Assembly (NCBI GenBank): GCA_902728285.1
Contig: CACVBU010000681.1
Location: 2,300,260-2,364,259 of the forward strand
Direction: 5' to 3'
Origin: Clytia hemisphaerica
Taxonomy: Eukaryota; Cnidaria; Hydrozoa; Leptothecata; Clytiidae
DNA: 64,000 nt
A program made the translations under genes and the position numbers. Numbering within the stretch: the first letter of the stretch is position 1; the number at the start of each line of letters is the position of its first letter. The notes below the pieces were generated by a model. It made no database searches. It was not told the DNA's origin and saw nothing but the letters and a program-made list of their open reading frames with translations. This document shows positions 1 through 52,555 of this stretch, in pieces.

Positions 1-1056
1 TTTCTTCGTGATAGGATTGAAGAAAATTTAAATAAAACACTAAAGTCGTAACGTTTAACCAATTTATCTACCTGTCGAATTCTTCATTTGTGCATCATCG
101 GATGTGGGTTGACTTGGAAATTGTTTGCTTTGGCGAGTCTGCGGTGAGTCTGTAAACGTGAACCGATAGATTTTTAAGAATGAAATTTTGATAACCTCGT
201 TTCTTCGTGATGGGATTGAAGAAAATTTAAATAAAACACTAAAGTCGTAACGTTTAACCAATTTATCTACCTGTAGAATTCTTCATTTGTGCATCATCGG
301 ATGTGGGTTGACTTGGAAATTGTTTGCTTTGGCGAGTCTGCGGTGAGTCTGTAAACGTGAACCGATAGATTTTTAAGAATGAAATTTTGATAACCTCGTT
401 TCTTCGTGATGGGATTGAAGAAAATTTAAATAAAACACTATAGTCGTAACGTTTAACCAATTTATCTACCTGTAGAATTCTTCATTTGTGCATCATCGGA
501 TGTGGGTTGACTTGGAAATTGTTTGCTTTGGCGAGTCTGCGGTGAGTCTGTAAACGTGAACCGATAGATTTTTAAGAATGAAATTTTGATAACCTCGTTT
601 CTTCGTGATGGGATTGAAGAAAATTTAAATAAAATACTAAAGTCGTAACGTTTAACCAATTTATCTACCTGTCGAATTCTTCATTTGTGCATCATTGGAT
701 GTGGGTTGACTTGGAAATTGTTTGCTTTGGCGAGTCTGCGGTGAGTCTGTAAACGTGAACCAATAGATTTTTAAGAATGAAATGTTGATAACGTCGTTTC
801 TTCGTGATAGGATTGAACAAAATTTAAATAAAACACTAAAGTCGTAACGTTTAACCAATTTATCTACCTGTCGAATTCTTCATTTGTGCATCATCGGATG
901 TGGGTTGACTTGGAAATTGTTTGCTTTGGCGAGTCTGCGGTGAGTCTGTAAACGTGAACCGATAGATTTTTAAGAATGAAATGTTGATAACGTCGTTTCT
1001 TCGTGATGGGATTGAAGAAAATTTAAATAAAACACTAAAGTCGTAACGTTTAACCT
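1..1056. repeat. 199-bp tandem repeat array (about 5.3 copies)
   Basis: A unit of 199 bp repeats head to tail from the window edge to about 1056. The landmark aatttatctacctgt recurs at about 60, 259, 458, 657 and 856. Copies differ by only a few substitutions. Short ORFs of 65 codons recur at the same spacing and are by-products of the repeat, not genes. The array lies about 100 bp beyond the stop codon of the transposase gene, so it could be a subterminal repeat of that element. The outer end is outside the window, so this cannot be settled. Confidence 0.9.
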
Positions 1057-1159
1057 AGCTGTTATTCTTCAAAATCATTCACTCTTTTTCAATTAATATA
1101 TATCATTGCTCTCTGAATCTTCCGGAATATATAGGAAAGTTAGCTAAGAGATATCAATG

Positions 1160-4100
1160 CTAACCTTGTAAATAATACGACTTACTTTTTTTCGTAGAAT
1201 CTTTTTTGTCGAGCAGTTTCATCAAGGAACCAAACGAAATTTCAGCTACAGGTATATTGCCGTGTTGGTGATCATGCCAGTTCCTTGGTTCTTTGTATTT
1301 CGGTATATCTTCACGCGCATCCTCAACTTTTGCACATTGAGAAGCTATCCAACGTCTTAAAAGCGGCGATGGTATTTTGGTTGCAGATTCTTTTCTTTTG
1401 CATAAATCCCACGCCATAGCAAGAACTAGATATCCACAATCGACGAGGTTCTGTTGTTTTCTACCTTTCAATTGAAGCCATTCCAATGGTTGGGATTTGT
1501 AGCGAAGAGTTTCGTTATTGACTACTTTGATGCCTTCCCAGTTAACACGTGGTTGAATCAGAGGGTCATAAACTACAGCAATGTCGTCTTTTATGAAAAT
1601 TAAGAGCCAGTGGTCGTGCTCATGTACAGGGATCAATACAACATCTTTGTATAGTGCCAATTTGTGACCAAAACGTCTTCGCAAGTCTGATAACCGGTTT
1701 CCATAGACATCTTGATACCAAAGACTGGAGATAACTGTTATTTCATCAGGTAGGCGATTCTTCATAAACGATAAAAAGCCATTGATAATTTCATCATTAG
1801 CTTTGTCCACCAAACACCTCTTTATATCAGCATTGGAGATAGAAGACGATAAGGGATTTAACGTTGAAAGGAGTATTTGATTCATTGAACTCCAATCAGA
1901 CTCATCTAAGAGAAATTCTTCTTCTGTTGCTTTGGTATTTTTGACGTAACACAAAACGTGAGTAGTTGACTGGAAAGTGGGATCCTTCAGAACAATTGAC
2001 TTTTCCAAAACCTGGAAACTATTGTCGTCTATCTTCAGCATATTTCTTTTTTCAACAAGATAGGTGATGTAATGACCATGCTTCAAATCTTTGCCAATGA
2101 AATTTATTGAACCAACTAGGTTATACTGGATTCTCTCCTTGAAGCCAGCAATCTTCGAGATGTCAATATGTTCTTCTACCTTGACTTGTTTCCGAACAAC
2201 CATCTGAGCATTGTCTGAGCGATTTGTCATTATCAACAAGAAAGGAGGGGTATTTCCAAGGTATCTACCAATCAACGGGTTAGCATTGTCACAACATTCA
2301 TTTGGATAAAGGTCACGGCTGCGACCTTCCAGAGGTTGATGAAAGAAAGTCTTTTGCAAAAGACAAGTTAACGTTTCTTGGTGTTTATTGTGATCAACTT
2401 TTACACGCAAAGCTTGCAGGGTTGTGAGCGAATGGAGAATGTGATTACAAGACAGACATCGTGTAAACTCGACAAAGATGTTGTGGAAAGGACTTTGCTC
2501 GTCATGGAATAATTTGTTTAGAAGCACCATCATAAATTCTTCTGCGTCTACATATCTAGCAGTTCTGTAATCGTGTTTGCATACCACATTGATTATTTCA
2601 CCGATAGCAGATTCTCCGTCCAATCCATTACCAAAAGGGAACGGCGAATTAGATTCATTCGATAATTCATCCCTAATATAGCGTAAATACCTAGTAAGCT
2701 TGTTGTTGCAAATTTCATCATCAATAGGAAGTGCCTTGTTCACACATGTTCCTAGAAGCAACTGTAACGAAGAGCTGGCAAAACAGTTAGCATAAAGATT
2801 GGTAATTCCTTTGTTAGTTATCGGAGGTGCTTGCCTAAACTCTGGATGGTTTGATGCTTTACAATACTGCAGAGTGAGTATCACGGATGAATGGTAGTTT
2901 GTTTTCTCGTTTTCTGAAAGTTCGTTGAAAGATAGTAACACTTGGGTGAAAAGGTCATCATCGGTGACAGGTTTTGTAAAGGATTGAACCATTGCATAAT
3001 TAAGAATATCCTGGAAAACGTCAGTTATGCAATCATTACAATAATATAGCGGTGATGTCGGGCGATCTTCTGGACGTATTTCAAACTCTGGTAGCTCTCT
3101 TTCATACGCTTTATGGCAAATCTGGCACCTACACTTTTCCGTCTTCTTGATGACACCACGTTTTGAGAATCGGATAGGGGTAGCTGGTGACGCAAGAAAT
3201 GATTTTCTGTCTCTTCGCTTCTCCGTTCTGGTTCTTTTCGGCATCCAGCGCTCCTCTAACATTTGTTGAAATTCATCTTGTTCGTCGCAGTTTCCCAACA
3301 GACTTTTCTTCAAACTAACTGCGGTTGCCTTCGGGTACATATCCTTTGCCATTTTATCAATGAATTGACGTTTCAAAGCCAAGGAGAATTTCTTGTTGGC
3401 TTCAACAAATTCCACCAGAGGCAGGTTTTTCTTTGACGAATCCGCCTTCTTTAAATGAAAGAACAATTCGGCGTAAGCGTTCGTGATTTCGTCATTTGAT
3501 AATGTTCTTCCGGCGGTCAAACTTTTCTTGTATTGATTGGAAAAGCGATCCAAATCACCACAAAGCAAATTTGACCAAAGGGGGACTTGATCTAATAGTC
3601 CCCGAAGATAAAAAAAGAATTTAGGTGTGTAGTACTTGTTGTTTTGAGCCGTTGACGTTGAAGTTGACTTTTTGGAAGTTACATTGGCTTTGATGGTGCG
3701 ATTCCAATGCTCATGCCAGCTCCCAGAATGGCCTGTTTCAATACAGTCAAAAACAAGATTGTCGCTGTTTCGCTTGGTGTTTTCCAATGCGATTCTATCT
3801 TGTTGACTGTATTGAAAGTTGTTGATCTTGATTTCCATTCTGGTCAGCGCAGCATCAACGTCATCCGAAACCAATCTTGAGCAAATGACCTTAGCAAGGT
3901 CGTTTACGAATTCAGTCATTTCCTCTAAGTCTTCGAAGCAGATCAGCCTTCCAATTGCTCTTAGCGCAAAATGTTGTTGACTTTCACTGTATGGCTTAAG
4001 GTTTCGTCTACACATTTGCAGGAAATGGTAAGCACAAATTCTAATGAAAGTTTTTTCGAGGTCACTCTTATCCGCCTTACCATGGATAATACGGTAGGTT

Positions 4101-5335
4101 CTTTCTAGATATTCCTCGAGTGTGCTTCCAGTAAATTCCTGCAGAACAGCCTGCACCATAGCAGCACTGTAATCGATGATGATTAGTTTTGGAGATACAG
4201 CATTTCCACTGCCATATATTCTGTTTTCGACTTCCCTTAGTCTTGAAAAGGCTTGTCGGATAGAAAATACATTGTTCTCTGAAGAAATGTATTCCAACAA
4301 GGGTAACGGTGGACATTTTCCTGAAGGCAAACGAGCCATTAAAGCATAAAGCAAAATTCTTTTTTTCTTGTTTTTTTTGTTTTTTAGCCAAGGGACTCCA
4401 GATACAAATGAGCCACTTGCATCAAAGAAAAGAACATCCAACGGGGCAACTTTATGATAGTATCGAACCAAGCCTTCGTCTGTCATAGTCAAAGATATCC
4501 CAGAGTCAGACAAAGAAGGGTAATGGATGTAGCCATAAACTTTCTTCTTTTTGAGGACATCTCTCTCTTTGTCTTCGTCAACAAACCTCTTCTGTAAGGC
4601 GCAAATATTGTTGTTCATGTTGTTTAACTCATCCCGTTCTTTGTGCACTTTCGAAGCAATGTTTTGAAAAGACTTCAAGCCGACTCCTAAGCCATCTCTG
4701 TTGCCACTCGCAAACTGAAGAGGGTCCATTGACGCAAGTTTGTCTCGATAGGCGATCGATGGTTTAGATTTTGATTGTTTAAAGTAGTCTTCGAGTTCGC
4801 TTTTCTTCTTATGACTCAGCTTTCTTGCTTTTAAATCACCTCGTCGATGTTTAATGTCACCACTGAACCTCACCTTCAAAAATTCATCCGGCCCTTTGCT
4901 GTTCTCGTATCGCTGAATTGTTACTTTGACCGGGCAGCCCTCCATAGCACATTTCGCTTTGACAGTGAACAAAGGCGAAATCTTTTTCCTACTGTCCTTT
5001 TTCTTGACGAAGTTGTACACAAATTTGAATGAGCAACAATTATTCAGTTTCAACAAAACATCGGCAAAATAATTGGTATATCCTGCGGCAAATTTATTTT
5101 CTTTGCTTCCTCTGTTGATTTTCAGTGTATTCAGTCCATCAGGAATGTCTATCTTGAGATTCTTGGGGGAAATTTTTCGGTAAAAATCTTTTGGTGTGAT
5201 GTCCTCGCTTTCAGCAAGCTCTTTCAACAGCCTATCGTCGTTGTTGTTTGAATTCTTGTTTAAGAGTTTTGGAATTGATAAATTTTGAGGAGTTTGACCA
5301 TGTTGACCAACAGCACATTTTGCATATGAGAACAT
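1160..5335 (-). CDS. MULE-type transposase fused to USP and Ulp1 protease domains
   Basis: Uninterrupted 1391-codon ORF. Residues about 100-166 form a WRKY/GCM1-like zinc finger (Cys129, Cys134, His163). Residues about 265-600 are a Mutator-like DDE core: LFFDASG with Asp305, PKLIIIDYS with Asp388, then CAYHF (Cys434, His437) and GHSGSWHEHWN near 535, where Glu542 may be the third acid. A CRCQIC...CNDC zinc ribbon spans 735-769. A USP (C19) domain follows: GITNLYANCF (Cys851), YVDAEEF (928), CLSC (960), HGHYITYL (His1088) and Asp1103/1104. A Ulp1 (C48) domain ends the protein: ANDEIINGFL (1179), HDHWLLIF (His1242), Asp1257, QQNLVDCG (Gln1295, Cys1300). All three enzyme signatures look complete. 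Mutator-like elements with WRKY/GCM1 fingers or Ulp1 domains are known; I know of none that adds a USP domain. The chosen Met is internal to the ancestral protein, because the original N-terminus was split off by a tandem duplication. Function is inferred from motifs. Confidence 0.8.
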   Translation of the reverse strand: MFSYAKCAVGQHGQTPQNLSIPKLLNKNSNNNDDRLLKELAESEDITPKDFYRKISPKNLKIDIPDGLNTLKINRGSKENKFAAGYTNYFADVLLKLNNCCSFKFVYNFVKKKDSRKKISPLFTVKAKCAMEGCPVKVTIQRYENSKGPDEFLKVRFSGDIKHRRGDLKARKLSHKKKSELEDYFKQSKSKPSIAYRDKLASMDPLQFASGNRDGLGVGLKSFQNIASKVHKERDELNNMNNNICALQKRFVDEDKERDVLKKKKVYGYIHYPSLSDSGISLTMTDEGLVRYYHKVAPLDVLFFDASGSFVSGVPWLKNKKNKKKRILLYALMARLPSGKCPPLPLLEYISSENNVFSIRQAFSRLREVENRIYGSGNAVSPKLIIIDYSAAMVQAVLQEFTGSTLEEYLERTYRIIHGKADKSDLEKTFIRICAYHFLQMCRRNLKPYSESQQHFALRAIGRLICFEDLEEMTEFVNDLAKVICSRLVSDDVDAALTRMEIKINNFQYSQQDRIALENTKRNSDNLVFDCIETGHSGSWHEHWNRTIKANVTSKKSTSTSTAQNNKYYTPKFFFYLRGLLDQVPLWSNLLCGDLDRFSNQYKKSLTAGRTLSNDEITNAYAELFFHLKKADSSKKNLPLVEFVEANKKFSLALKRQFIDKMAKDMYPKATAVSLKKSLLGNCDEQDEFQQMLEERWMPKRTRTEKRRDRKSFLASPATPIRFSKRGVIKKTEKCRCQICHKAYERELPEFEIRPEDRPTSPLYYCNDCITDVFQDILNYAMVQSFTKPVTDDDLFTQVLLSFNELSENEKTNYHSSVILTLQYCKASNHPEFRQAPPITNKGITNLYANCFASSSLQLLLGTCVNKALPIDDEICNNKLTRYLRYIRDELSNESNSPFPFGNGLDGESAIGEIINVVCKHDYRTARYVDAEEFMMVLLNKLFHDEQSPFHNIFVEFTRCLSCNHILHSLTTLQALRVKVDHNKHQETLTCLLQKTFFHQPLEGRSRDLYPNECCDNANPLIGRYLGNTPPFLLIMTNRSDNAQMVVRKQVKVEEHIDISKIAGFKERIQYNLVGSINFIGKDLKHGHYITYLVEKRNMLKIDDNSFQVLEKSIVLKDPTFQSTTHVLCYVKNTKATEEEFLLDESDWSSMNQILLSTLNPLSSSISNADIKRCLVDKANDEIINGFLSFMKNRLPDEITVISSLWYQDVYGNRLSDLRRRFGHKLALYKDVVLIPVHEHDHWLLIFIKDDIAVVYDPLIQPRVNWEGIKVVNNETLRYKSQPLEWLQLKGRKQQNLVDCGYLVLAMAWDLCKRKESATKIPSPLLRRWIASQCAKVEDAREDIPKYKEPRNWHDHQHGNIPVAEISFGSLMKLLDKKDSTKKSKSYYLQG

Positions 5336-6780
5336 AACTTTGCCAAGAAAATCAGCATATGCATTTTCTTCGTTTAAATTAACCGATGTTAAACTCCTTT
5401 CACCACTACGATCTTCCTTTTTTCCACATTACCATGGATAATACGGTAGGTTCTTTCTAGATATTCCTCGAGTGTGCTTCCAGTAAATTCCTGCAGAACA
5501 GCCTGCACCATAGCAGCACTGTAATCGATGATGATTAGTTTTGGAGATACAGCATTTCCACTGCCATATATTCTGTTTTCGACTTCCCTTAGTCTTGAAA
5601 AGGCTTGTCGGATAGAAAATACATTGTGCTCTGAAGAAATGTATTCCAACAAGGGTAACGGTGGACATTTTCCTGAAGGCAAACGAGCCATTAAAGCATA
5701 AAGCAAAATTCTTTTTTTCTTGTTTTTTTTGTTTTTTAGCCAAGGGACTCCAGATACAAATGAGCCACTTGCATCAAAGAAAAGAACATCCAACGGGGCA
5801 ACTTTATGATAGTATCGAACCAAGCCTTCGTCTGTCATAGTCAAAGATATCCCAGAGTCAGACAAAGAAGGGTAATGGATGTAGCCATAAACTTTCTTCT
5901 TTTTGAGGACATCTCTCTCTTTGTCTTCGTCAACAAACCTCTTCTGTAAGGCGCAAATATTGTTGTTCATGTTGTTTAACTCATCCCGTTCTTTGTGCAC
6001 TTTCGAAGCAATGTTTTGAAAGACTTCAAGCCGACTCCTAAGCCATCTCTGTTGCCACTCGCAAACTGAAGAGGGTCCATTGACGCAAGTTTGTCTCGAT
6101 AGGCGATCGATGGTTTAGATTTTGATTGTTTAAAGTAGTCTTCGAGTTCGCTTTTCTTCTTATGACTCAGCTTTCTTGCTTTTAAATCACCTCGTCGATG
6201 TTTAATGTCACCACTGAACCTCACCTTCAAAAATTCATCCGGCCCTTTGCTGTTCTCGTATCGCTGAATTGTTACTTTGACCGGGCAGCCCTCCATAGCA
6301 CATTTCGCTTTGACAGTGAACAAAGGCGAAATCTTTTTCCTACTGTCCTTTTTCTTGACGAAGTTGTACACAAATTTGAATGAGCAACAATTATTCAGTT
6401 TCAACAAAACATCGGCAAAATAATTGGTATATCCTGCGGCAAATTTATTTTCTTTGCTTCCTCTGTTGATTTTCAGTGTATTCAGTCCATCAGGAATGTC
6501 TATCTTGAGATTCTTGGGGGAAATTTTTCGGTAAAAATCTTTTGGTGTGATGTCCTCGCTTTCAGCAAGCTCTTTCAACAGCCTATCGTCGTTGTTGTTT
6601 GAATTCTTGTTTAAGAGTTTTGGAATTGATAAATTTTGAGGAGTTTGACCATGTTGACCAACAGCACATTTTGCATATGAGAACATAACTTTGCCAAGAA
6701 AATCAGCATATGCATTTTCTTCGTTTAAATTAACCGATGTTAAACTCCTTTCACCACTACGATCTTCCTTTTTTCCACAT
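4078..6780. repeat. 1.35-kb tandem segmental duplication inside the transposase gene
   Basis: The block 4078-5429 is repeated as 5430-6780 at over 99% identity by eye. The sequence ttaccatggataatacggt occurs at 4077 and 5429, and the stretch ending ttttttccacat ends at 5429 and 6780. The second copy is one base shorter (gaaaag at 4662 versus gaaag at 6019) and has rare substitutions, such as attgttctc versus attgtgctc near 4283 and 5635. The join at 5429/5430 puts upstream coding sequence out of frame. It is either a recent duplication or an assembly artefact. Confidence 0.92.
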
Positions 6781-8165
6781 TCATCATCACTTGTTTGTTC
6801 TTCATCCTCAAATCTTTCACCATTCTTTCTCTGTTCGCTTTCGTCCAATCTGCCACCGTCGACACTCATTCGTTCTCCATCCTCAAATCTTTCGTCATCA
6901 CTACGATCTTCCTTTTTTCCACATTCATCATCACTCGTTTGTTCTTCATCCTCAAATCTTTCGCCATTCTTTCTCTGTTTGTTTTCGTCCAATCTGCCAC
7001 CGTCGTCACTTGTTTGTTCTCCATCCTCAAATCTTTCGCCATTCTTTCTCTGTTTGTTTTCGTCCAATCTGCCACCGTCGTCACTTGTTTGTTCTCCATC
7101 CTCAAATCTTTCGTCGTCACTACAATCTCCCTTCTTTCTCTGTTCATCATCACTCGTTTGTTCTCCATCCTCAAATCTTTCGCCATTCTTTCTCTGTTTG
7201 TTTTCGTCCAATCTGCCACCGTCGTCACTTGTTTGTTCTCCATCCTCAAATCTTTCGCCATTCTTTCTCTGTTTGTTTTCGTCCAATCTGCCACCGTCGT
7301 CACTTGTTTGTTCTCCATCCTCAAATCTTTCGTCGTCACTACAATCTCCCTTCTTTCTCTGCTCATCGTCACTCGTTTGTTCTCCATCCTCAAATCTTTC
7401 GCCATTCTTTCTCTGTTTGTTTTCGTCCAATCTGCCAACGTCGTCACTTGTTTGTTCTCCATCCTCAAATCTTTCGCCATTCTTTCTCTGTTTGTTTTTG
7501 TCCACTCTGCCACCGTCGTCACTTGTTTGTTCTCCATCCTCAAATCTTTCGCCATTCTTTCTCTGTTTGTTTTTGTCCACTCTGCCACCGTCGTCACTTG
7601 TTTGTTCTCCATCCTCAAATCTTTCGTCATCACTACAATCTCCCTTCTTTCTCTGCTCATCATCACTTGTTTGTTCTTCATCCTCAAATCTTTCGTCATC
7701 ACTACAATCTCCCTTCTTTCTCTGTTCATCATCACTCGTTTGTTCTTCATCCTCAAATCTTTCGTCATTCTTTCTCTGTTTGTTTTCGTCCAATCTGCCA
7801 CCGTCGTCACTTGTTTGTTCTCCATCCTCAAATCTTTCGTCATCACTACAATCTCCCTTCTTTCTCTGCTCATCGTCACTCGTTTGTTCTTCATCCTCAA
7901 ATCTTTCGCCATTCTTTCTCTGTTTGTTTTCGTCCAACTTGCCACCGTCGTCATTAGTTTCAAATATTTTAGCTTCGGTAGCTGACCACTTTTTGTACTT
8001 GTAATACAGACATTTGACTTTCGTTGGATTGATTTTGGAAATGTTGAAGTACCTTTTGCTTATTTCGGTCCATAATTTTCTATCGAAGCTACTCCCAGCG
8101 TAGTTTTTAGGAAGTAATTTTTGTAAACGTCTCCCATCCAATTCAAATCTTTTCTTCTTCTTCAT
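5389..8165 (-). pseudogene. 5' half of the transposase gene, frameshifted copy
   Basis: This is the upstream half of the same transposase gene. From the Met at 8165 the first 70 residues are basic and contain a possible helix-turn-helix (WTEISKRYF to YYKYKKW). An acidic repeat region follows, then the zinc-finger part duplicated in the 1391-codon ORF. Near 6020 a 1-bp deletion shifts the frame and the ORF ends at 5976. The next frame (5389-6000) continues through the first DDE aspartate motif to RTYRIIHG, then runs out of frame across the duplication junction. An in-frame extension to 8300 encodes a very hydrophobic stretch and is probably untranslated leader. The intact ancestor would read from 8165 straight into the catalytic half. 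As assembled, this copy cannot make the full protein. Confidence 0.75.
6785..7965. repeat. Coding minisatellite of acidic 25- and 23-residue units
   Basis: About sixteen units alternate between a 75-bp form (minus-strand peptide ERFEDGEQTSDDGGRLDENK plus a short basic tail) and a 69-bp form (ERFEDGEQTSDDEQRKKGD plus CSDD). Both keep the transposase frame open, and the opposite strand is also open, which produces long spurious plus-strand ORFs. The peptide is highly charged and presumably disordered. Repeat number is probably variable. Confidence 0.9.
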
Positions 8166-8303
8166 TATATTGCGTATTATTTTGAAAACTTGGTTGATAT
8201 AAATGGATCGAAGTGAGTAAGTGTCATTTAAGAAATAAAATATTACCAGAATCAGCAGAATTTTTAATAAGAAAGAGATTAGTTCGATTAATTTAAGCAT
8301 GAA

Positions 8304-8552
8304 TTAATTTTCGTCATTCAAATTAATAGCCCAGGCAAGCGATAAATCTGAAAGCCACTGATCGTGATAATCAGCCAAGCGCAGCTTTTGTAGATTTTGG
8401 ATGATGAAGGTGAAGATTTTATGAAAATAAAAATTCATTAAAGATTTGCTTTTTATTCCGTCAAGATGTTCAGATCTTTTAATATTCGTCAAGCGTAAAA
8501 TACCTTTGCTGTGCAAAACCTCGCAATGATCCTTTTTGCGCAATAAATTCAA
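8304..8552 (-). other. Small ORF upstream of transposase, uncertain
   Basis: An 82-codon ORF lies 139 bp upstream of the chosen transposase start on the same strand. Its C-terminal half (LRLADYHDQWLSDLSLAW) looks somewhat protein-like, and no known family is recognised. It could be part of the element's 5' region, a short upstream ORF, or chance. Confidence 0.2.
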
Positions 8553-9553
8553 TCGAAAATTGCAATAAAAAAGATTGCGCGATCGGCAAAGTAGCTCTAC
8601 GCGATGATTAAAAAAAATTCCAATCGAAAATTAATTCACTTTAGGTACAGCGCTACACCTTTAAAGGATAAACACCATGTATTAATTGATATTGATTTTT
8701 CAACAGTATAATAGTTTAGATTTACATAGTTTACTCCTAGGTCAGCCCCCCCCCCCCCAGAAATTTTATACTACCTACACTTAGCTATTAAAATGTAGCT
8801 TCAACTTAGCTATCAATTAAGTGAAAAGCAGAATCATCAAAGTATCCATTTGCCTAGTAAAAAATGAATTTAGGATAATTTGGGATAAGATTGAAAGTTT
8901 AAGTTTAAGACATTTGGACATATGGACAATTGGAAAAATAAATGAATAACTTCAAAAGAAAAGTGAGTTTTCGTTTTGGGTTTAGAACATTAGGTTTATT
9001 GTTTGATAAAATAATACGGGGGAATGTAGTAATCAAATTTCTCAGGTGTCTTGACCCAATGGAAGACTACACTGCCTCCCTCCCTCTACAGCTACAAGCT
9101 TTCATTCGGGGAAACAATATTATTTCCAACCAACCCAACCTGGGTTTCATCAAAATCAAAGACCCCTTAAATATAGGGGGTGGAAACTATGGATAACTAT
9201 TTGCCCTGTGTGCTTTCGAAACGTAATCAGAATTTCCAAAATCTTGGAGGAATATCCTGTTGCTCTTAAAAAAGTTACTTACTTACTTGATCACTTCAGT
9301 ATATTTAATGTATTTTACTATCGTATACAACATCATTGCAATGGCTAATTATACACATCATTCAATGTGCCTAAAAAAGTTTGTACAGGCTTTGGCTTTA
9401 TATGAGAAACTTATGAAAGGTTAAAAAGAGTTGAGTTGAGATAGAGTTTAATTAAACAGCTCCTATATAAATTATTCATAAATAAAAAACAAACTTTTTG
9501 GTTTCATTGTATACGAAGCAGCAAATCAATATCTATATCAATCTAAATCAATA
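8553..9553. other. AT-rich spacer, no gene seen
   Basis: No convincing coding sequence or tandem repeat. A run of 14 C lies near 8745. An 84-codon plus-strand ORF at 8942-9196 has no recognisable composition or motif. Confidence 0.6.
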
Positions 9554-12372
9554 TCTGCTATCAATCAAGTTGTCCAGAAAGCTCTAACAACAAAGTCATC
9601 ATTTTGAGTGAATTATTTCTCGAGGGAATTTCCCTCTAGCCTGAAATAACCACACCCATTTTGAAAATTATTTTTATCCACAATTGTTATATTGGATGCC
9701 AGGTAGCATCTAAATTACTTTTAAAGAATATCTGCTATCAATCAAATTGTCCAGAATACTCTAACAACCAAGTCATCATTTTACGTGAATTATTTCTCGA
9801 GGGAATTTCCCTCTAGCCTGAGATAACCACACCCATTTTGAAAATTATTTTTATCCACAATTGTTAAATTGGATGCCAGGTAGCATCTAAATTACTTTTA
9901 AAGAATATCTGTCATCAATCAGGTTGTCTAGAAAGCTCTAACAACAAAGTCATCATTTTACGTGAATTATTTCTCAAGGGAATTTCCCTCTAGCCTGAGA
10001 TAACCACACCCATTTTGAAAATTATTTTTATGCAGAACTGTTTCATTAGATACCAGGTAGCATCTAAAGTACTTTTAAAGAATATCTGCCATCAATCAAG
10101 TTGTCCAGAAAGCTCTAACAACAAAGTTAACATTTTACGTGAATTATTTCTCGAGGGAATTTCCCTCTAGCCTGAGCTAACACACCCATTTTGAAAATTA
10201 TTTTTATCCACAATTGTTATATTGGATGCCAGGTAGCATCTAAATTACTTTTAAAGAATATCTGCTATCAATCAAATTGTCCAGAATACTCTAACAACAA
10301 AGTCATCATTTTACGTGAATTATTTCTCGAGGGAATTTCCCTCTAGCCTGAGATAACCACACCCATTTTGAAAATTATTTTTATCCAAAATTGTTAAATT
10401 GGATGCCAGGTAGCATCTAAATTACTTTTAAAGAATATCTGTCATCAATCAGGTTGTCCAGAAAGCTCTAACAACAAAGTCATCATTTTACGTGAATTAT
10501 TTCTCAAGGGAATTTCCCTCTAGCCTGAGATAACCACACCCATTTTGAAAATTATTTTTATGCAGAACTGTTTCATTAGATACCAGGTAGCATCTAAAGT
10601 ACTTTTAAAGAATATCTGCCATCAATCAAGTTGTCCAGAAAGCTCTAACAACAAAGTTATCATTTTACGTGAATTATTTCTCGAGGGAATTTCCCTCTAG
10701 CCTGAGCTAACCACACCCATTTTGAAAATTATTTTTATCCACAATTGTTATATTGGATGCCAGGTAGCATCTAAATTACTTTTAAAGAATATCTGCTATC
10801 AATCAAGTTGTCCAGAATACTCTAACAACAAAGTCATCAATTTACGTGAATTATTTCTCAAGGGAATTTCCCTCTAGCCTGAGATAACCACACCAATTTT
10901 GAAAATTATTTTTATCCACAATTGTTATATTGGATGCCAGGTAGCATCTAAATTACTTTTAAAGAATATCTGCTATCAATCAAATTGTCCAGAATACTCT
11001 AACAACAAAGTCATCATTTTACGTGAATTATTTCTCGAGGGAATTTCCCTCTAGCCTGAGATAACCACACCCATTTTGAAAATTATTTTTATCCACAATT
11101 GTTATATTGGATGCCAGGTAGCATCTAAATTACTTTTAAAGAATATCTGCTATCAATCAAGTTGTCCAGAACACTCTAACAACAAAGTCATCATTTTACG
11201 TGAATTATTTCTCGAGGGAATTTCCCTCTAGCCTGAGATAACCACACCCATTTTGAAAATTATTTTTATCCACAATTGTTATATTGGATGCCAGGTAGCA
11301 TCTAAATTACTTTTAAAGAATATCTGCTATCAATCAAGTTGTCCAGAATACTCTAACAACAAAGTCATCAATTTACGTGAATTATTTCTCAAGGGAATTT
11401 CCCTCTAGCCTGAAATAACCACACCCATTTTGAAAATTATTTTTATCCACAATTGTTATATTGGATGCCAGGTAGCATCTAAATTACTTTTAAAGAATAT
11501 CTGCTATCAATCAAGTTGTCCAGAAAGCTCTAACAACAAAGTCATCATTATACGTGAATTATTTCTCGAGGGAATTTCCCTCTAGCCTGAAATAACCACA
11601 CCCATTTTGAAAATTATTTTTATCCACAATTGTTATATTGGATGCCAGGTAGCATCTAAATTACTTTTAAAGAATATCTGCTATCAATCAAGTTGTCCAG
11701 AATACTCTAACAACAAAGTCATCATTTTACGTGAATTATTTCTCGAGGGAATTTCCCTCTAGCCTGAGATAACCACACCCATTTTGAAAATTATTTTTAT
11801 CCACAATTGTTATATTGGATGCCAGGTAGCATCTAAATTACTTTTAAAGAATATCTGCTATCAATCAAGTTGTCCAGAAAGCTCTAACAACAAAGTCATC
11901 ATTATACGTGAATTATTTCTCGAGGGAATTTCCCTCTAGCCTGAAATAACCACACCCATTTTGAAAATTATTTTTATCCACAATTGTTATATTGGATGCC
12001 AGGTAGCATCTAAATTACTTTTAAAGAATATCTGCTATCAATCAAGTTGTCCAGAATACTCTAACAACAAAGTCATCATTTTACGTGAATTATTTCCCGA
12101 GGGAATTTCCCTCTAGCCTGAGATAACCACACCCATTTTGAAAATTATTTTTATCCACAATTGTTATATTGGATGCCAGGTAGCATCTAAATTACTTTTA
12201 AAGAATATCTGCTATCAATCAAGTTGTCCAGAAAGCTCTAACAACAAAGTCATCATTATACGTGAATTATTTCTCGAGGGAATTTCCCTCTAGCCTGAAA
12301 TAACCACACCCATTTTGAAAATTATTTTTATCCACAATTGTTGTATTGGATGCCAGGTAGCATCTAAATTAA
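9554..12372. repeat. 177-bp satellite, about 16 copies
   Basis: The phrase tctgctatcaatcaa starts units at 9554, 9731, 9908, 10085, 10261, 10438, 10615, 10792, 10969, 11146, 11323, 11500, 11677, 11854, 12031 and 12208, a near-constant period of 177 bp (one unit is 176). Each unit contains the near-palindrome gagggaatttccctc. Copies are about 90-99% identical. Variant units recur in a regular order, indicating higher-order repeats. No coding potential. Confidence 0.95.
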
Positions 12373-12540
12373 TTTTTGAACCTTATGGATCATACCCACT
12401 GCCGGAGGCCAAGCTTAGAAATACATAGACTGAATACTTTAAACGTTAAAAATTCGTCAATTGAATGACTATTTCCCTCTCTCATGTCATAAACAACTTT
12501 GTTTAGGAAATGATACCTGTAAATTGTTCAAGTTGAATGA

Positions 12541-12549
12541 ATATTCTTG
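12541..12549. repeat. 9-bp target site duplication, left copy (ATATTCTTG)
   Basis: atattcttg directly precedes the left terminus of the foldback element and is repeated exactly after its right terminus. Confidence 0.85.
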
Positions 12550-13990
12550 ACCAAAATGAACTTAGCATCGGATCAACATTGGATTCAACATTGGATTCGC
12601 CATTCTAGCATTGGATTCACTTTACCGGACAGTATCTTTTTCGGACAGCATTTTTAGGTCATCAAAACTATAATGGACGGTACCTGTGTCTATTAGCTAT
12701 CACCTAGTGAAAAAGTTAAGTTCATACCTCCTTTCCCCTAGGAGGAGTTAAGCGGAAACCACTGCTGATTGTCAGCATTGGATTCAAATTTCCAGCATTG
12801 GATTCACTTTATCGGACAACCTTATTCTCGGACAGCATTTTTAGGTATTCAAAACTATAATGGACGGTACCTGTATATATTAGCTATCATTTAGTGAAAA
12901 AATTAAGTTCATACCTCATTTCCCCTAAGAGGAGTTTTAGCGGAAACCACTGCTGATTGAAAACAAGAAATTCCAATTTCAACCTTTTGCTCGCTAATTA
13001 TCGGACAACCTTATTGGCGGACAGCATTTTTAGGTGTTTAAAACTATAATGGACGGTACCTGTATCTATTAGCTATCATTTAGTAAAAAAATTAAGTTCA
13101 TACCTCATTTTCCCTAGGAGGAGTTAAGCGGAAACCACTGCTGATTGAAAACAAGAAATTCCAATTTCAACCTTTTGCTCGCTAATTATCGGACAACCTT
13201 ATTGGCGGACAGCATTTTTAGGTGTTTAAAACTATAATGGACGGTACCTGTATCTATTAGCTATCATTTATTGAAAAAATTAAGTTCATACCTCATTTTC
13301 CCTAGGAGGAGTTAAGCGGAAACCACTGCTAGTTGACAACAAAAAATTCCAATTTCAACCTTTTGCTCGCTAATTATCGGACAACCTTATTCGCGGACAG
13401 CATTTTTAGGTGTTCAAAACTATAATGGACGGTACCTGTATCTATTAGCTATCATTTAGGGAAAAAATTAAGTCCATACCTCATTTTCCCTAGGAGGAGT
13501 TTAGCGGAAACCACTGGTGATTGACAACAAGAAATTCAAATTTCGACCTTATGCTCGCTAATTATCGGACAACCTTATTCGCGGACAGCCTTTTTAAGTA
13601 TTCAAAACTATAATGGACGGTACCTGTATCTATTAGCTATCATTTAGTGAAAAAATTAAGTTCATACCTCATTTCCCCTAAGAGGAGTTTTAGCGGAAAC
13701 CACTGGTGCGTGATTGACAGCATTGGATTCAAATTTCCATCTTAGGCTCGCTTATTATCGGACAACCTTAATCTCGGACAGCATTCTATGATAGTCAAAA
13801 CTACAATGGGAGGTATCTATGTCTATTGGCTATCATTTAGTAAACAAACATTAAGATCATTCCTCATTTTCTCAAGGAGGAGTTTACCGGAAACCACTGG
13901 TGATTGACAGCACCGGTTTCAAATTATTACTTGATTTTGACCTTAGGGTCGCTAATTATCGGACAATCATTTTCAGACAGCATGCTTGTG
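12550..13990 (+). repeat. Left inverted arm, about 7 tandem units of ~188 bp
   Basis: The landmark gcggaaaccactg recurs near 12752, 12940, 13130, 13318, 13505, 13693 and 13880. The outermost part contains several cattggattc repeats not present in inner units; the same outer block occurs inverted at the right end. Confidence 0.88.
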
Positions 13991-14189
13991 GTATCATAAA
14001 AGATATGGGAAGATATGAGAATACTAATTAATATCCCCCATCGAGTTTCAGTCTGTTATTTTTACCTCAACTAGCTGAAAGGGGGGGGGGTAATTAAGGG
14101 CCAGCTCAAAAGAGGTCGGTATTATAGGATATGAATAAATTCCGTGAAACTGAAAATCTTCAAAATTTGAAATCCCACTTGAATATTAA

Positions 14190-14228
14190 CAGGTTAGGGT
14201 TAGAGTTAGGGTTAGGGTTTGAGTTAGA
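14190..14228. repeat. Short telomere-like TTAGGG stretch
   Basis: ttagggttagagttagggtt and a following agggtttgagttag give about five imperfect TTAGGG units inside the foldback element. It is too short for a telomere relic, and chance or a slipped microsatellite is possible. Confidence 0.5.
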
Positions 14229-14813
14229 TATTCACTAGATGATATGACCCAAACCGGACTTATTCCACATACCTTAAGTGGATGAACTTTCGCGTGTACT
14301 AATTTTCTTGAATCAAGGGTCTTTAAAATTTTCGCGTGGATTAGATTTCGTGAAAATAGCCTTCTTTATTTAATTTTGCGACTATATAAATTGCAACTAG
14401 AAAAGAGATGTGTTTTTTTTAATCGAACAAAGGCAGACAAAGTCACTCAAAAGCTTTTTAAAAAATTCAAAGAAAGTACTTTTAGGAGGTTACTAGAGTT
14501 TGTAATTGAAATGAAGAGTTGAACTCGTAATATGTTATGATTGTAGCATGTTATCTAGATTTCGCGAACTTTTATTGACAAGTTAGAGAATCTTAATTCT
14601 AATTTGAAATAGAATATAGTAGGGGCGTAAGGGGTTTGCAATTTCCAAAATACCGATTAATATTGTCAAAATTTCCGAAATTCCGTAAAAAAATACTTGC
14701 AATTCCGATACCGATGTTTTTGAGTATTTTTCCTCGTTTTGACTAATTATTTTATTATTAAAATGAATATTACAGGTTGTAGGCACTCAGTGGGCCTCTA
14801 AACCGATCTCAAT

Positions 14814-15422
14814 TTACAAATTTTGTGTAACGAATTTCTTTGGATGGCTTTTCCATGCTTCTTTCAACTTTTCACTGAAGCCTTTTATGGAAACAGCAGC
14901 TACCACCTCAGACGGCAATTTATTCCACGTAGGGATGGTTCTGTAGTAGAACGACTTTGTTTGCGGGCCGCGGAATCCATTACTTGCAAGGTTCGGCTGG
15001 AGTTCATCTTTGTGTTGTCGATTCGGACGTGGTCGATGGGTAGTAGCTTTATCGTAGAAGTGAAGATGCTTATAGACCTGCACCATATCACAAAAAGTTC
15101 TACGAAACTCTAGTGTTGGTAATTGTAAGCTTCGTAGTCTATCCTCATAAGAGAGATTTTTGTAAAGTTTGACAAGTCTTGTCGCACGTCTCTGCACTCC
15201 TTCCAATAGGTTGACATGTTTCCTTAGTTTCGGTGACCAGACTGATTGTGCATATTCAAGATGCGTTCGAACGAAAGTACAGTACAGAGTAAGAAAAATC
15301 TGTGGGCTAAGGTTTTGGAAGTCACGGTTAATAACTCCAAGCATCAAATTGGCCTTGTTGACTTGCTTAGAGATATGTTCCTCGAAACTCAACTCTATTT
15401 TTTCATCAAATATTTTTTTCAC
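14814..15422 (-). pseudogene. LINE (CR1/L2-like) reverse transcriptase C-terminal fragment
   Basis: A 202-codon ORF matches the region after the polymerase core of CR1/L2/Rex-type non-LTR retrotransposons: FVRTHLEYAQSVWSP, VQRRATRLV, LSYEDRLRSLQLPTLEFRR, TIPTWNKLP. The start is inside the protein, so the copy is 5'-truncated, as is usual for LINE insertions. The reading frame is still open over the retained part. It sits in the centre of the foldback element, flanked by degenerate blocks rich in attccgaaat (14640-14730 and 15440-15600). Confidence 0.8.
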
Positions 15423-15991
15423 GTATGAATTCCGAAAAAGGGGGATAAAAACTTTATGATATCGAAATTTCGAAACAAAAATTCATGGATTTCCGATACC
15501 GAAACAACTTCGGAATTCCAAAATACCGAAGAAATTATGCCCGATTTCCGAAATTCTGAAGAAAATAGCTCGATTTCCGCAATTCCGAAATACCCCACAC
15601 AATGTAGAAGATTTATGGCGCTTTTTAGCCTGTTTAAGCCTTGATTTGGGAAAATTTATGCTTGCGAAAAACATTTCTTCGTCAAATTCGAGAAAGTAAA
15701 TGTCGTAAATTTCGAGATTTTTTGACCTCACGAAAATTTGTACGCCTAAAGTATTCTGGTCACGATAGTATATTCTTTTTTATCTGAAATAGTCAATCAG
15801 AGAAAAGAAAAACATTCAATTTTTGTGTTTCTTTTTTAAATATAATCGATATTGAATTGGGCGCATGGCGTTCTAAAATACAGGCCTAGTAAACATGTAT
15901 CCGCGGCGATTTTACGAAGGCCATGGAATTTTCATAATTTTCAAAAAAAGTGCGTTATCAAAAGGCTGTCGAACCATAAACAGTCTTAGTA

Positions 15992-16349
15992 ATGAAGAGA
16001 AGAAATTTGGAACCATCAGAGGAACATTATGAAAACCTACAGCTTTCCGAAAAAAGCGAAGCATGCAAGTGTATCAAATCAATTCCGTTTTGGGAGGAAG
16101 ATGAAATCGAAGCGATGGTAGTTCATGTTCTACGAAAAACACTGGCCCGTTGGTTTCTTCGAAAAGAAAGGGGAACGTGAAAAATTGCGACCCGTCCAAC
16201 CTCCGTCAGTAGAGAAATGCTCGATCCCAACTCCTCCTACAAAAGAAAGACCGACAAAGAAATCATCGTTTGAGACTAAGACGCACAAAGAAGATCAACT
16301 TGACAAGTTCAAATTGATGGACGCAGTCAATTGTAAATCCTTTCTTTAA
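15992..16349 (+). pseudogene. Possible captured gene fragment, frameshifted
   Basis: Two overlapping frames look coding in succession: 15992-16177 (ends HVLRKTLARWF) and 16125-16349 (starts MFYEKHWPVGFFEKKGE, then proline- and lysine-rich). A small indel near 16130 would join them. CG-containing codons are more frequent than in the surrounding AT-rich DNA. No family recognised. It could be host sequence carried by the foldback element. Confidence 0.3.
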
Positions 16350-16719
16350 GAGTCCAATCTATGTAATAAAATGGAGTTCCAAAAAGCCATTTGATGGAAT
16401 GCGGCCTTCAAACGTTCCTTCTGTATGATCAATGCCTTCACGGGACATTTGTAGTAAACTGACAGTTAAGCCAGTGAGTACCAGGGCTATATATCATAAA
16501 ATAACATCCAGATAAAAACATCGGTGAATTGAATGTGGTTGTGAAAGTATTTGGATTAAAAAATCCGACGAAATAAGCAACATTCATATCTAGAGCATTT
16601 TTTATTGCTTTCAATTTTAAATCTCGCGGCATTAAAGTTCAGGGTATTGTTACATTAAAAAGCAACGGATTTCTGCCATATTTTTCATTATTTTTTTCTA
16701 AATACTGTAATAGCAAATA

Positions 16720-17761
16720 GACATAAGTATCGTCCGTTGTCCGATAAATAGCGAGCCTATGGTCGAAATTTGGATTTCTTGTTGTCAACTACCTGTGGTT
16801 TCCGCTTAACTCCTCCTAAGGAAAATGAGGTATGAACTTAATTTTTTCACTAGGTGATAGCTAATAGGTAAAGGTACCGCCCATTGTAGTTTTGAACACC
16901 TAAGAATGCTGTCCGAGATTAAGGTTGTCCGATAATTAGCGAGCATAAGGTCGAAATTTGAATTTCTTGTTGTCAATCACCAGTGGTTTCCGCTTAACTC
17001 CTCCTAGGGAAAATGAGGTATGAACTTAATTTTTTTACTAAATGATAGTTGATATATACAAGTACCGTCCATTATAGTTTTGATGACCTAAAAATGCTGT
17101 CCGAAAAAGATACTGTCCGGCAAAGTGAATCCAATGCTGGAAATTTGAATCCAATGCTGTCAATCAGCAGTGGTTTCCGCTTAACTCCTCCTAGGGAAAA
17201 GGAGGTATGAACTTAATTTTTTCACTGAATGATAGCTAATAGGTACAGGTACCGTCCATTATAGTTTTGAATACCTAAAAATGCTGTCCGCGTATAAGGT
17301 TGTCCGATAATTAGCGAGCATAACGTCAAAATTTATATTTCTTGTTGTCAATCAGCAGTGGTTTCCGATTAACTCCTCCTAGGAAAAAGGAGGTATTAAC
17401 TTATTTTTTTCACTAGGTGATAGCTAATAGGTAAAGGTACCGTCCATTATAGTTTTGAACACCTAAGAATGCTGTCCGAGAATAAGGTTGTCCGATAATT
17501 AGCGAGCATAAGGTCGAAATTTGAATTTCTTGTTGTCAATCAGCAGTGGTTTCCGCTTAACTCCTCCTAGGGAAAATGAGGTATGAACTTAATTTTTTCA
17601 CTAAATGATAGCTAATAGATACAAGTACCGTCCATTATAGTTTTGATGACCTATAAAAATGCTGTCCGAAAAAGATACTGTCCGGTAAAGTGAATCCAAT
17701 GCTAGAATGGCGAATCCAATGTTGAATCCAAGGTTGAATCCGATGCTAAGTTCATTTTGGT
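16720..17761 (-). repeat. Right inverted arm, about 5 tandem units of ~188 bp
   Basis: The landmark gtggtttccg recurs at 16795, 16983, 17170, 17358 and 17546 (spacing 187-188), in reverse orientation to the left arm. Confidence 0.88.
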
Positions 17762-17770
17762 ATATTCTTG
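17762..17770. repeat. 9-bp target site duplication, right copy (ATATTCTTG)
   Basis: Exact copy of the left flank, immediately after the right terminus. Confidence 0.85.
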
Positions 17771-18738
17771 CATCTAAATTTGGTCTTGAGTTGTCACCAT
17801 TACTGTTTATTGCACTGTACATCGTTGTTTTCGAATCCCGAATTTGAATCCCGAATCCCGAATTCCGAATACCTAACTGTAGCGAATCTGCCAAACAAAA
17901 CATGAGATTAGGCTAAAATGGAACAATCTCGAAAGACTTAAGATTGTTATATCTTGAAATTGTAGATAAGATAAAATTGCCTATGGAATTCGCCAATAAT
18001 AGCTCAATGTCCGCTTAATGCTAAATACGCGTTTAGCAGATGTGATTAATATTTAGCTTGCAAGTCCCTCTACATTTTAAATCGTGTTTTTTAAAGTCTA
18101 GTGTGAGTGAAAGTGAGTGAAATCCGAGAGATTTATCAGAAAAACATGATGGTAGAAAGAAAAGAACACTATTATTTTTATATATACCATGCTGAGCAGC
18201 ATTGTCATTGATTGTATGACAGGTTTGGTACGTATAGCAACACAAATTTTGCCATGAATTATGTTTGCAGCAGGGGGGGGGGGGTCTTGCAGTTACTCCT
18301 ACCTTGACACTATTATGTGGAGTAACCGCAATTTTGGACATTTTCTACAGACACCACCACCCTTGCAGTTATTCCATAGTGTACTAACTGATTTTACCCT
18401 CAAAATTGGTGTATACCACCCCCAAAAATGCCAAATTTGGCAATTTTTTCACTGAATTCCTCATTTTTGACACCATTTTACTGACTGGGTACGTCTTATT
18501 AACGACCGTTCAAGAGTTAAATATCTCAATCATTTTCCAAGTTTGTTAAAATATCTTTCATGCCTTGATTGAAGAAAAATTTTGTGATTTTTTTTGACTT
18601 TTGAAAAAAATGTTTTGAATTTTTTTGCTTCCGGAATTTTTAAAAACCTATAAAATTTTAAGAGTGAAAAATTGAAAAATGTGCTCACTTATACACCATA
18701 TCCTACCAAAATCGACAATCTTGGGCTTTGGTGGAGTA
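17771..18738. other. Non-coding spacer
   Basis: Contains a short run of cgaatccc-type repeats at 17838-17870, a G run near 18275, and nothing that looks like a gene. Confidence 0.6.
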
Positions 18739-50740: not shown

Positions 50741-52555
50741 TTATGATTCATAACGTTCTCTTGTTTTCCCGTGCATTTTGAAACCATCCCTACTCTGTTT
50801 CTCACCAAGAATCATGGTATAATCGATCTCTGATCTCGTCAACCTCTTACAAAGTTCATAATAATCAGTACCGCGTGCTTCTTCTCGAATCTTGTATCCT
50901 TCAATTTCAAACCAAGATTGTGTTTCATCAACATGGTCTCCTTTATCCAAACATTTTTCTTCCAAATCTTGAATCATATCTTTCAATTTTTCTAAATCTC
51001 GCTGGAAACTTTCACCTTTTTGTTCAATCTTACGCCAAAATGTTCGATTAAAGTGATCGTACATCGCATAATCGATTCGACTCCAATGTCGCACGGTCTC
51101 ACGTTTAGGTCCGACATCTTTGCGAAATTTATTCGGTCGTTTATTCAACGTAAAATAGACAACATCCTGTAAGTCCCAACATAGTTCGTCTTTCAACAAA
51201 ACCATCGATTCTAACATGTATTCAGATATCATAACAAGACTAAAATCTTGATCCATTGTTTTAATCACGTGACTCACATTGGCAGGATACTCAGACCATT
51301 GATCAAAGCCAAGATCAAAAGTACTTGGATTTTTCAATAAATGTTTAACGACCCCAGCTTTCATTGTTTTTAAATTTCGGACAAGTTGTGTCCGGTCAGA
51401 TTCAGTTGTACTAAAAAACTCCCATAATCCATTTTCCTCGCTTGTTTTCAACGGTTTATGAAATTTAAAATAAGAGAACATAGACTCTAATTGAAACAAC
51501 GGCTCACGGAGAATGGTAACGAATTTAGTAAGACTGGGTCGAGTCATCATTGCTGCCATGTTTTCTTTATGAAAACGAGCATGATTGGCTAAGAGATTGA
51601 ATCTATCACCATCTTTATATTCAAACACAAAACTATGATTAAACTTATTAGGCCATTTAAATAAATGAGTCGGTAATTTTGGTAAAACCATCTCAAGGTT
51701 ATGGTGATCGCTATATCGTTGAAAGACATTAATCACAGTGCTTGAGCCTGTCTTGTGAGTCTTCAAGAACACGACATTCCGTTCAGCTTTACAAGTCTTA
51801 GGTTCTGGTTTTTCGCCGCGTATTTCAATACCACCTTGGTTATTGAGGCGTAATTCTCCTTTTAGAAGCGGCGCTACAACCACTTCTTGTGGTTGTTGGT
51901 CATCAATTATATTACCATCTTCTTTGGCAATCTTCTTTTCAACTTCATTGAGTTCCTGCAAAATCTCTAAATGTCGTAAATCCTCCTCATGCAACTTTGG
52001 ATCCCTGTGATAAAGAAAGCAATGATGATTGTTCAGTATAGATCCTTTACAGCTCTTTAGCACTCACCACAAAGGTTCCTACTGCTTGACCGCTCTAACC
52101 ATAAAACTTGTATGACGCTTATAAGCATCATCAGAGCCAGAAATGAAATTTAAGCTTTTGAAAAAGATAGATTTATTGTTATAAAGCCTCTGAAACCCCT
52201 CCCTCTACATATCAAGTCGAATAAGGATCAATGGTGTCATCATCGTCTGAAATCAAAAGTCAAGTTCGAACCCCTGCTTGCTTCAATGTTCTGTTCAGTT
52301 CAAGGATAACCGCTTCGGCTAGTAGTAAGTAACCCCGTGAAAACATTCAAAAGACTGTTTAAAAGTCCTAGTTTTTACTGGGGTATCTATCTTAGATATC
52401 GACTCGGTCAAAATGGTGAAAAACTTACGATAAAACCAATCTCCGACTGCTCAACAAAATCTCGATATCATTTCTCTTCAACATAGCCGTCAACGTTAAT
52501 ACATAAATGACAACAAAAGTCGCCAACACGATGTATAATATCTTGACTTTCATCT
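50741..52555 (-). CDS. Galactose-3-O-sulfotransferase-like, gene A (frame-disrupted anchor exon)
   Basis: Catalytic exon 50741-52004 (420 codons plus stop) follows acceptor ttatcacag. Exon 1 is 52429-52555 with donor gtaagt. The catalytic part shows the Gal3ST signatures: FLKTHKTGSSTVIN (PAPS 5'-phosphosulfate loop), ANHARFH, TILREPLFQLESMFSYF (3'-phosphate motif), FTLNKRP and a conserved C-terminal GYKIREEARGTDYYELC. Such enzymes are Golgi type II membrane proteins that transfer sulfate from PAPS to galactose 3-OH on glycolipids or glycans. Exon 1 starts MKVKILYIVLATFVVIY, an ideal signal anchor, but then meets a stop. The frame that fits the phase-2 splice is 2 bp out because of gtatatt. 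Either a 2-bp insertion disables this allele, the assembly is wrong, or translation starts at a later in-frame Met (MLKRND) without an anchor. Acceptor specificity is not predictable. Confidence 0.82.
52429..52555 (-). CDS. Gene A exon 1: signal-anchor exon with 2-bp disruption
   Basis: Encodes MKVKILYIVLATFVVIY and then taa in frame. The last 60 bp (MLKRNDIEILLSSRRLVL) are in the frame required by the catalytic exon. Confidence 0.6.

Follow-up and report, generated by a model that had tools for sequence, protein, structure and literature searches.

Can a single DNA transposon protein carry a DDE transposase together with proteases for both ubiquitin and SUMO, and if so, what would the two proteases be used for? 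This question is raised by an open reading frame (ORF) of the hydrozoan Clytia hemisphaerica (assembly GCA_902728285.1), located in a stretch of 64,000 nucleotides of contig CACVBU010000681.1 (positions 2,300,260 to 2,364,259 of the forward strand) that is referred to here as the window. A first-pass annotation had read the frame at 1160..5335 as one transposon protein with DDE, deubiquitinase-like (USP, peptidase C19) and SUMO-protease-like (Ulp1/SENP, peptidase C48) domains. The frame was found to be open on the minus strand from 5335 to 1160, with 1391 amino acids (aa), and the presence of all three domains in one transposon protein was confirmed. On balance, we consider it probable that this transposase carries two isopeptidases which both work, and which act either on the complex that it forms itself or on host proteins of silencing or repair.

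Domains of the protein

The coding features are as follows, by window position.

1160..5335, minus strand: 1391-aa ORF with finger, DDE domain, PHD-like cluster, USP and Ulp1
1949..2809, minus strand: USP domain, with C851, H1088 and D1103/D1104
1322..1900, minus strand: Ulp1/SENP domain, with H1242-W1243, D1257, Q1294 and C1300
3350..4540, minus strand: DDE domain, residues 266-662, with D305, D388, C434xxH437 and E623
4814..5047, minus strand: zinc-finger-like region, residues 97-174, by family hidden Markov model (HMM), with C101, C129, C134 and H163 invariant
3020..3139, minus strand: degenerate PHD-like cysteine cluster, residues 733-772
4065..6781, minus strand: tandem duplication of 1.35 kb, copies 4065-5430 and 5417-6781, 99.6% identical
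5976..8300, minus strand: upstream ORF with the N-terminal part, then acidic repeats, then a first copy of the finger region
6787..7960, minus strand: in-frame acidic repeat array of 75/69-bp units
7986..8165, minus strand: conserved N-terminal segment common to the relatives L011 and L012, seen by eye with no statistic; no Pfam match

When the 1391-aa protein was searched against Pfam up to E=1, the sole match was UCH (PF00443) at residues 843-1129, with E=1.2e-15, above the curated cut-off. The segment read earlier as a USP with Cys, His and Asp boxes thus has a significant C19 match. A profile built from the family found USP12, USP46 and USP8 (best 3.2e-13), and its Cys, His and Asp were aligned with those of USP12. 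The USP and Ulp1 alignments held six sequences each. All six USP sequences, drawn from five lineages, share Cys851, His1088, Asp1104, Cys960, Cys963 and Cys1014, and position 1103 is Asp or Asn.

The Ulp1 region of the window protein alone had no Pfam match; its assignment is weak for the single protein and clear with a family profile. The same part of the protein matched SENP5 when phmmer was run against PDB (E=4.5e-4), and relatives matched PF02902 at up to 3.8e-11. Searching with a four-sequence family profile gave 3.2e-18 for SENP2 and 1.3e-17 for yeast Ulp1, and a further family profile search found SENP2/Ulp1 at 2.4e-22, with the His, Gln and Cys aligned with those of the enzymes. His1242, Trp1243, Gln1294 and Cys1300 were invariant in 6/6 sequences. 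The Asp (D1257) was kept in the window copy and in the relatives L011, L012, L013, L017, L018, L019 and L020, and a Ulp1 domain with His, Asp, Gln and Cys, as first described, is therefore present in the window copy. The residues that we take to be catalytic in USPs and SENPs agree with the aligned columns of the family profiles. If invariant columns were scattered at random, the chance of finding all three named columns among them would be about 2e-4 for the USP and about 1e-4 for Ulp1, values that serve as a rough guide because aligners favour such columns.

The DDE residues D305, D388, C434, H437 and E623 do not vary when the window protein is aligned with three divergent relatives. The earlier description of D...D...CxxxH motifs typical of Mutator-like elements (MULEs) holds for the two Asp, the Cys and the His, with the correction that the last motif is CxxH. 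A DDE profile of 9 family sequences, compared with a transposase profile of 9 of the 91 MULE matches from the same genome, gave E=1.5e-5 with a probability of 79.6, and placed D388 on the second MULE Asp and CxxH on CxxH. The control comparisons gave 0.12 (reversed), 0.42 (USP), 0.89 (Ulp1) and 0.47 (finger). Between two MULE subgroups the match was 3.2e-8, and the family matched one of the two at 1.8e-5. The spacing of the family is D-82-D-234-E; in arthropod MULEs the first spacing is 60-76, once 84, and the second 120-214 (PMC13359780), so that the first value lies within these ranges and the second beyond them. Neither the 2 window proteins nor the 17 relative ORFs scanned matched the Pfam MULE model (PF10551).

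The finger had been called WRKY/GCM1-like, a label that we do not retain. WRKY and GCM fingers have an HxH pattern; the region here has a single invariant His (H163), the second His of the pair was not found, and no Pfam finger model matched the region in the window proteins or the relative ORFs. The PHD-like cluster of the window copy also had no Pfam match. PHD (PF00628) was matched below the cut-off by 4/17 relative ORFs (L012, L014, L015 and L016; 8.6e-5 to 4.7e-4), and the family profile matched the PHD structure 1wev in PDB with E=0.001. In terms of the N-terminus, the ATG at 5335 is internal to a longer family protein, a point missed in the first-pass annotation. The 1.35-kb duplication sits between the upstream ORF, which holds the N-terminal part, and the 1391-aa ORF, and the order of the upstream ORF is the same in the single 1731-aa ORF of L011.

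Relatives, age and constraint

The searched genome comprised 417 Mb in 951 contigs, and the protein matched at least 40 stretches on 19 contigs, the window included. Twenty stretches were retrieved; they cover the window with its left flank as well as 17 other loci, and the matching contigs C509, C138 and C941 lie outside this set. Both protease domains, whole or partial, were found by family HMM at 10 of the 17 other loci (L011-L020), which represent five lineages in three deep branches. Because these HMMs were built from the ORFs that they scanned, this count is partly circular, and Pfam provides the independent test. UCH and C48 were both above the Pfam cut-off at 5/17 loci (L011, L012, L013, L015 and L019), and within one ORF at all of these except L013; at L014 and L018 one of the two was below the cut-off. 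Both proteases share one frame with the DDE part in L011 (1731 aa) and in L012 (1523 aa). Decayed remains of both were detected by tblastn at L021, and at L009/L010 nothing of the USP but its start is left, ahead of a low-complexity block.

Trees of the DDE, USP and Ulp1 domains gave one topology, with supports of 92-100, in which the window copy groups with L017, L011 with L012, and L016 with L014/L015. The trees contained six taxa for DDE and USP and seven for Ulp1, without L013, L018, L019, L021 and fragments; L012 contributed part of Ulp1 only, and the row L014_15 is L014. The median pairwise identity of the six aligned protease sequences was approximately 22% (range approximately 18-57%), and the three deep branches are approximately 19-26% identical to each other. 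Since the three trees agree, it is likely that the proteases were acquired once, in an old event that preceded the split of the three branches. A lone chance fusion was rejected because USP and Ulp1 recur in other lineages of the element and the trees agree.

Between L011 and L012, the ratio of nonsynonymous to synonymous change (dN/dS) was 0.10 for DDE, 0.20 each for the USP and the finger, and 0.25 each for the N-terminal part and the PHD part; Ulp1 had a dN of 0.21 with dS saturated. The close pairs, which have few changes, gave 0.13 for half of the USP (L013/L017), 1.24 for Ulp1 (L013/L017) and 0.73 for USP-Ulp1 (L014/L015).

Several observations weigh against a conserved transposase with two working isopeptidases. 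The L011/L012 ratios rest on dS values of 1.2-2.0, near saturation, and dS was saturated, leaving no ratio, for window/L017, window/L020, L017/L020 and L016/L014-L015. The close-pair ratios show no constraint on Ulp1, and the Ulp1 Asp is replaced by Ser in L016 and by Asn in L014/L015. Pfam finds one protease only in L016 (C48), L017 (UCH) and L020 (C48), and the loci L022, L023 and L026-L028 are similar in the N-terminal and DDE parts only. The window copy is itself rearranged by the 1.35-kb tandem duplication. As for the transposase, the MULE profile match leaves out the first Asp and the Glu, and the match of the family to the other MULE subgroup was weak (E=0.024, probability 2.0).

No relative of the protein was found in viral, phage and prokaryote sequence collections, which says little about animals; a viral origin was rejected on the absence of relatives from the viral and phage collections. 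Two features of the relatives were observed in passing. At L010, positions 1319-9016, a block of approximately 7.5 kb that is open in several frames on both strands comes right after the USP start of the relative on C597. The close copies L018 (from 6784) and L019 (from 5655) both diverge from the window sequence at window position 3889, and beyond it they share another sequence that is approximately 98% alike.

Possible roles of the two proteases

Transposon silencing and DNA repair both involve SUMO and ubiquitin, and ubiquitin has a general role in repair. If the protein works as we propose, the USP and Ulp1 domains would both be active as proteases, and the DNA-binding part would carry both of them to the repeat-rich ends of the element. 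At the ends, they would strip ubiquitin and SUMO either off the transposase itself or off proteins that gather there for silencing or repair. The outcome would be that the element is expressed, that the transposition complex persists, and that the break is handled in the element's favour. Removal at the ends of the element is favoured because Piwi-mediated silencing in the fly requires the SUMO pathway (PMC8733420), because the plant MULE VANC genes with Ulp1 are conserved and part of an anti-silencing system, in which the role of Ulp1 is unknown (PMC13317346), and because Bao et al. (2010) suggested a function for ubiquitin and SUMO proteases, either in transposition or in the repair that follows it (PMC2836005); self-cleavage, in addition, is unlikely.

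A broader version of this proposal is put forward tentatively, as possible but doubtful. The lineage may long have carried two different 'erasers', for ubiquitin and for SUMO respectively, as a fixed part of the transposase and next to a PHD-type reader. The element would then bring its own means of clearing host marks from its repeat-rich ends, and these may form a dual-modifier system for counter-silencing or for steering repair. No such system was found described for any DNA transposon in literature judged mostly by titles and the starts of abstracts.

The alternative that survives best, although we hold it to be rather unlikely, is that the proteases mainly deubiquitinate and deSUMOylate the transposase itself against degradation and have no special anti-silencing role. 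This would be consistent with the presence of both proteases in cis and with their co-inheritance with the DDE domain. The sequence, however, gives no preference for self-stabilisation over a chromatin role, and the PHD-like cluster of the relatives suggests, weakly, a chromatin setting.

It is improbable that the USP and Ulp1 domains were captured from the host and now only bind ubiquitin or SUMO, having lost cleavage. The Ulp1 Asp is replaced in two lineages, and in two of the three close comparisons the protease dN/dS is not low, which points in this direction. Against it, the USP keeps its Cys, His and Asp, and Ulp1 its His, Gln and Cys, without variation at approximately 22% identity.

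A polyprotein that is cut into pieces by its Ulp1 or USP domain would suit the great length of the protein, its several domains and its repeat linkers. Self-processing of this kind, suggested earlier, is unsupported and highly improbable: Gly-Gly does not occur in the window protein or in L011, occurs once in L012 and five times in L016 with none shared, and no ubiquitin-like domain was found by Pfam in the window proteins or the relative ORFs. We give equally little credence to the idea that decay or a scrambled assembly produced the 1391-aa ORF and that its fusion is meaningless, since L011, at approximately 26% identity, has the parts in the same order within a single frame of 1731 aa, even though the tandem duplication severs the N-terminal part, several other copies have stops or frameshifts, and the independent Pfam count of both proteases is 5/17. 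The window copy itself is possibly dead, and the 1.35-kb duplication may be an assembly error.

A transposase that has retained both a USP and a protease of the SENP type across deep divergence would provide a defined, testable case for the 2010 proposal that removing ubiquitin and SUMO belongs to transposition (PMC2836005).

The element and its known kin

The whole element is 23,951 bp long, with a minus-strand gene, and extends from window position -6058 (C472:2294201) to 17892 (C472:2318151), so that approximately 6 kb of its 3' side lie left of the window. It is bounded by terminal inverted repeats (TIRs) of 61 bp, which are identical at 59/61 positions, and by a 9-bp target-site duplication (TSD), AAACAAAAC, which is perfect on both sides (one element tested). 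Its non-coding features are as follows.

1..17892, minus strand: part of the transposon inside the window, with 61-bp TIRs and 9-bp TSD
17832..17892, minus strand: TIR on the gene's 5' side, beginning GGCAGATTCGCTACAGTTAGG; inverted copy at -6058..-5998, outside the window
17893..17901, no strand: TSD; the other copy lies directly left of -6058
1..1055, no strand: 199-bp tandem array directly 3' of the stop codon, extending left of the window to -256; common to the copy on C759
9550..12376, no strand: 177-bp array with 16 units, approximately 77% identical to its inverted partner at -5944..-4365
12642..13909, no strand: 188-bp array, inverted partner of 16736-17669
16736..17669, no strand: 188-bp array, inverted partner of 12642-13909

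The 177-bp array at -5944..-4365 adjoins the left TIR and is also present in the C759 copy (96%), which starts at the identical base, GGCAGATTCG. A genome-wide pattern search for the 24-bp end, with at most 2 mismatches, gave 5 sites, two of which are the two ends of the window element. Further copies of the 24-bp end lie at C359:437675-437698 and C654:154220-154243, on contigs without a match to the protein. Among the fetched stretches, those of the relatives on C597 and C742 contain a related end, GGTAGATTCGCTGG, and none was found in those of the other lineages.

Because of the TIRs, the 9-bp TSD and the inverted tandem-repeat arrays, the element fits a Rehavkus-like DNA transposon that belongs to the Mutator group and is present in low copy number, with Rehavkus compared by description only. 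The MULE label given at first applies to the DDE core, which aligns with MULEs over the second Asp and CxxH; the element as a whole fits Rehavkus better than ordinary MULEs. Very few Rehavkus elements are known, and they are described in Repbase only (Kapitonov and Jurka; Dupeyron et al. 2019, PMC6446971). According to that description, they have the same 9-bp TSD, TIRs of 26-400 bp (a range that includes the 61 bp found here), a DDE domain related to MULEs as in the window family, and a single ORF, which corresponds to the 1731-aa ORF of L011 and is split in the window copy. They also have a minisatellite before the 3' TIR, comparable to the 177-bp array beside the left TIR, and a PHD finger in the transposase, for which the relatives here give weak matches below the cut-off and the window copy a degenerate cluster (PMC6446971). 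Rehavkus-1_TC likewise has satellite repeats in inverted ends, at a length of 9.5 kb compared to 24 kb here (PMC10218199). The words 'ubiquitin', 'ulp1' and 'protease' have 0 occurrences in PMC6446971, whereas the window family has both a USP and Ulp1; the domain make-up of a poorly described group would thereby be filled in.

In terms of other known systems, Ulp1 in MULEs is already in print, as had been stated at the outset: Mutators with Ulp1 were named by Bao, Kapitonov and Jurka in 2010 (PMC2836005). Ulp1-bearing Mutator-like elements include plant KIU/Kaonashi and the Mutators of Hydra and lancelet; the available parts of their descriptions mention no USP, in contrast to the window family (PMC2836005, PMC13317346). 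In plant KIU, Ulp1 resides in a VANC-type gene apart from the transposase, one of three coding genes (PMC13317346). Ginger1 is similar to the present family in having a C-terminal OTU or Ulp1 on the transposase, in one case Ulp1 with PHD, but its integrase is of the Gypsy type and not MULE, and the table in PMC2836005 gives either OTU or Ulp1, with no element that combines the two and none with a USP. The first-pass annotation knew of no MULE with a USP. A C19 domain in a transposase is already in print for Trichomonas (XP_001314237.1), a USP-type fusion like the present one; it is no MULE, with another transposase domain (transposase_11, pfam01609), and no Ulp1 is mentioned in the available text (PMC2836005). 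The foldback-type Tm1 of root-knot nematodes shares composite inverted repeats, a 9-bp TSD and a MULE-group transposase (PMC3169594); it differs in that the transposase is a 496-aa Phantom-type protein, and 'protease' has 0 occurrences in PMC3169594. No prior description of a transposase with USP and Ulp1 was found in the literature, again judged mostly by titles and abstract starts, and the combination may already stand in Repbase protein records.

Three minor features of the window were also observed. Between the inverted 188-bp arrays lies a 202-aa ORF (14814-15422, minus strand) with no Pfam match, which we take to resemble the tail of a non-long-terminal-repeat (non-LTR) retrotransposon. 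Also within the element, positions 14192-14227 contain 6 copies of a GGTTAG-like, telomere-like unit. Outside the element, the window contains two galactose-3-O-sulfotransferase genes on the minus strand, at 50741-52063 and 59105-61249, which match PF06990 at 2.5e-72 and 7.2e-72, respectively.

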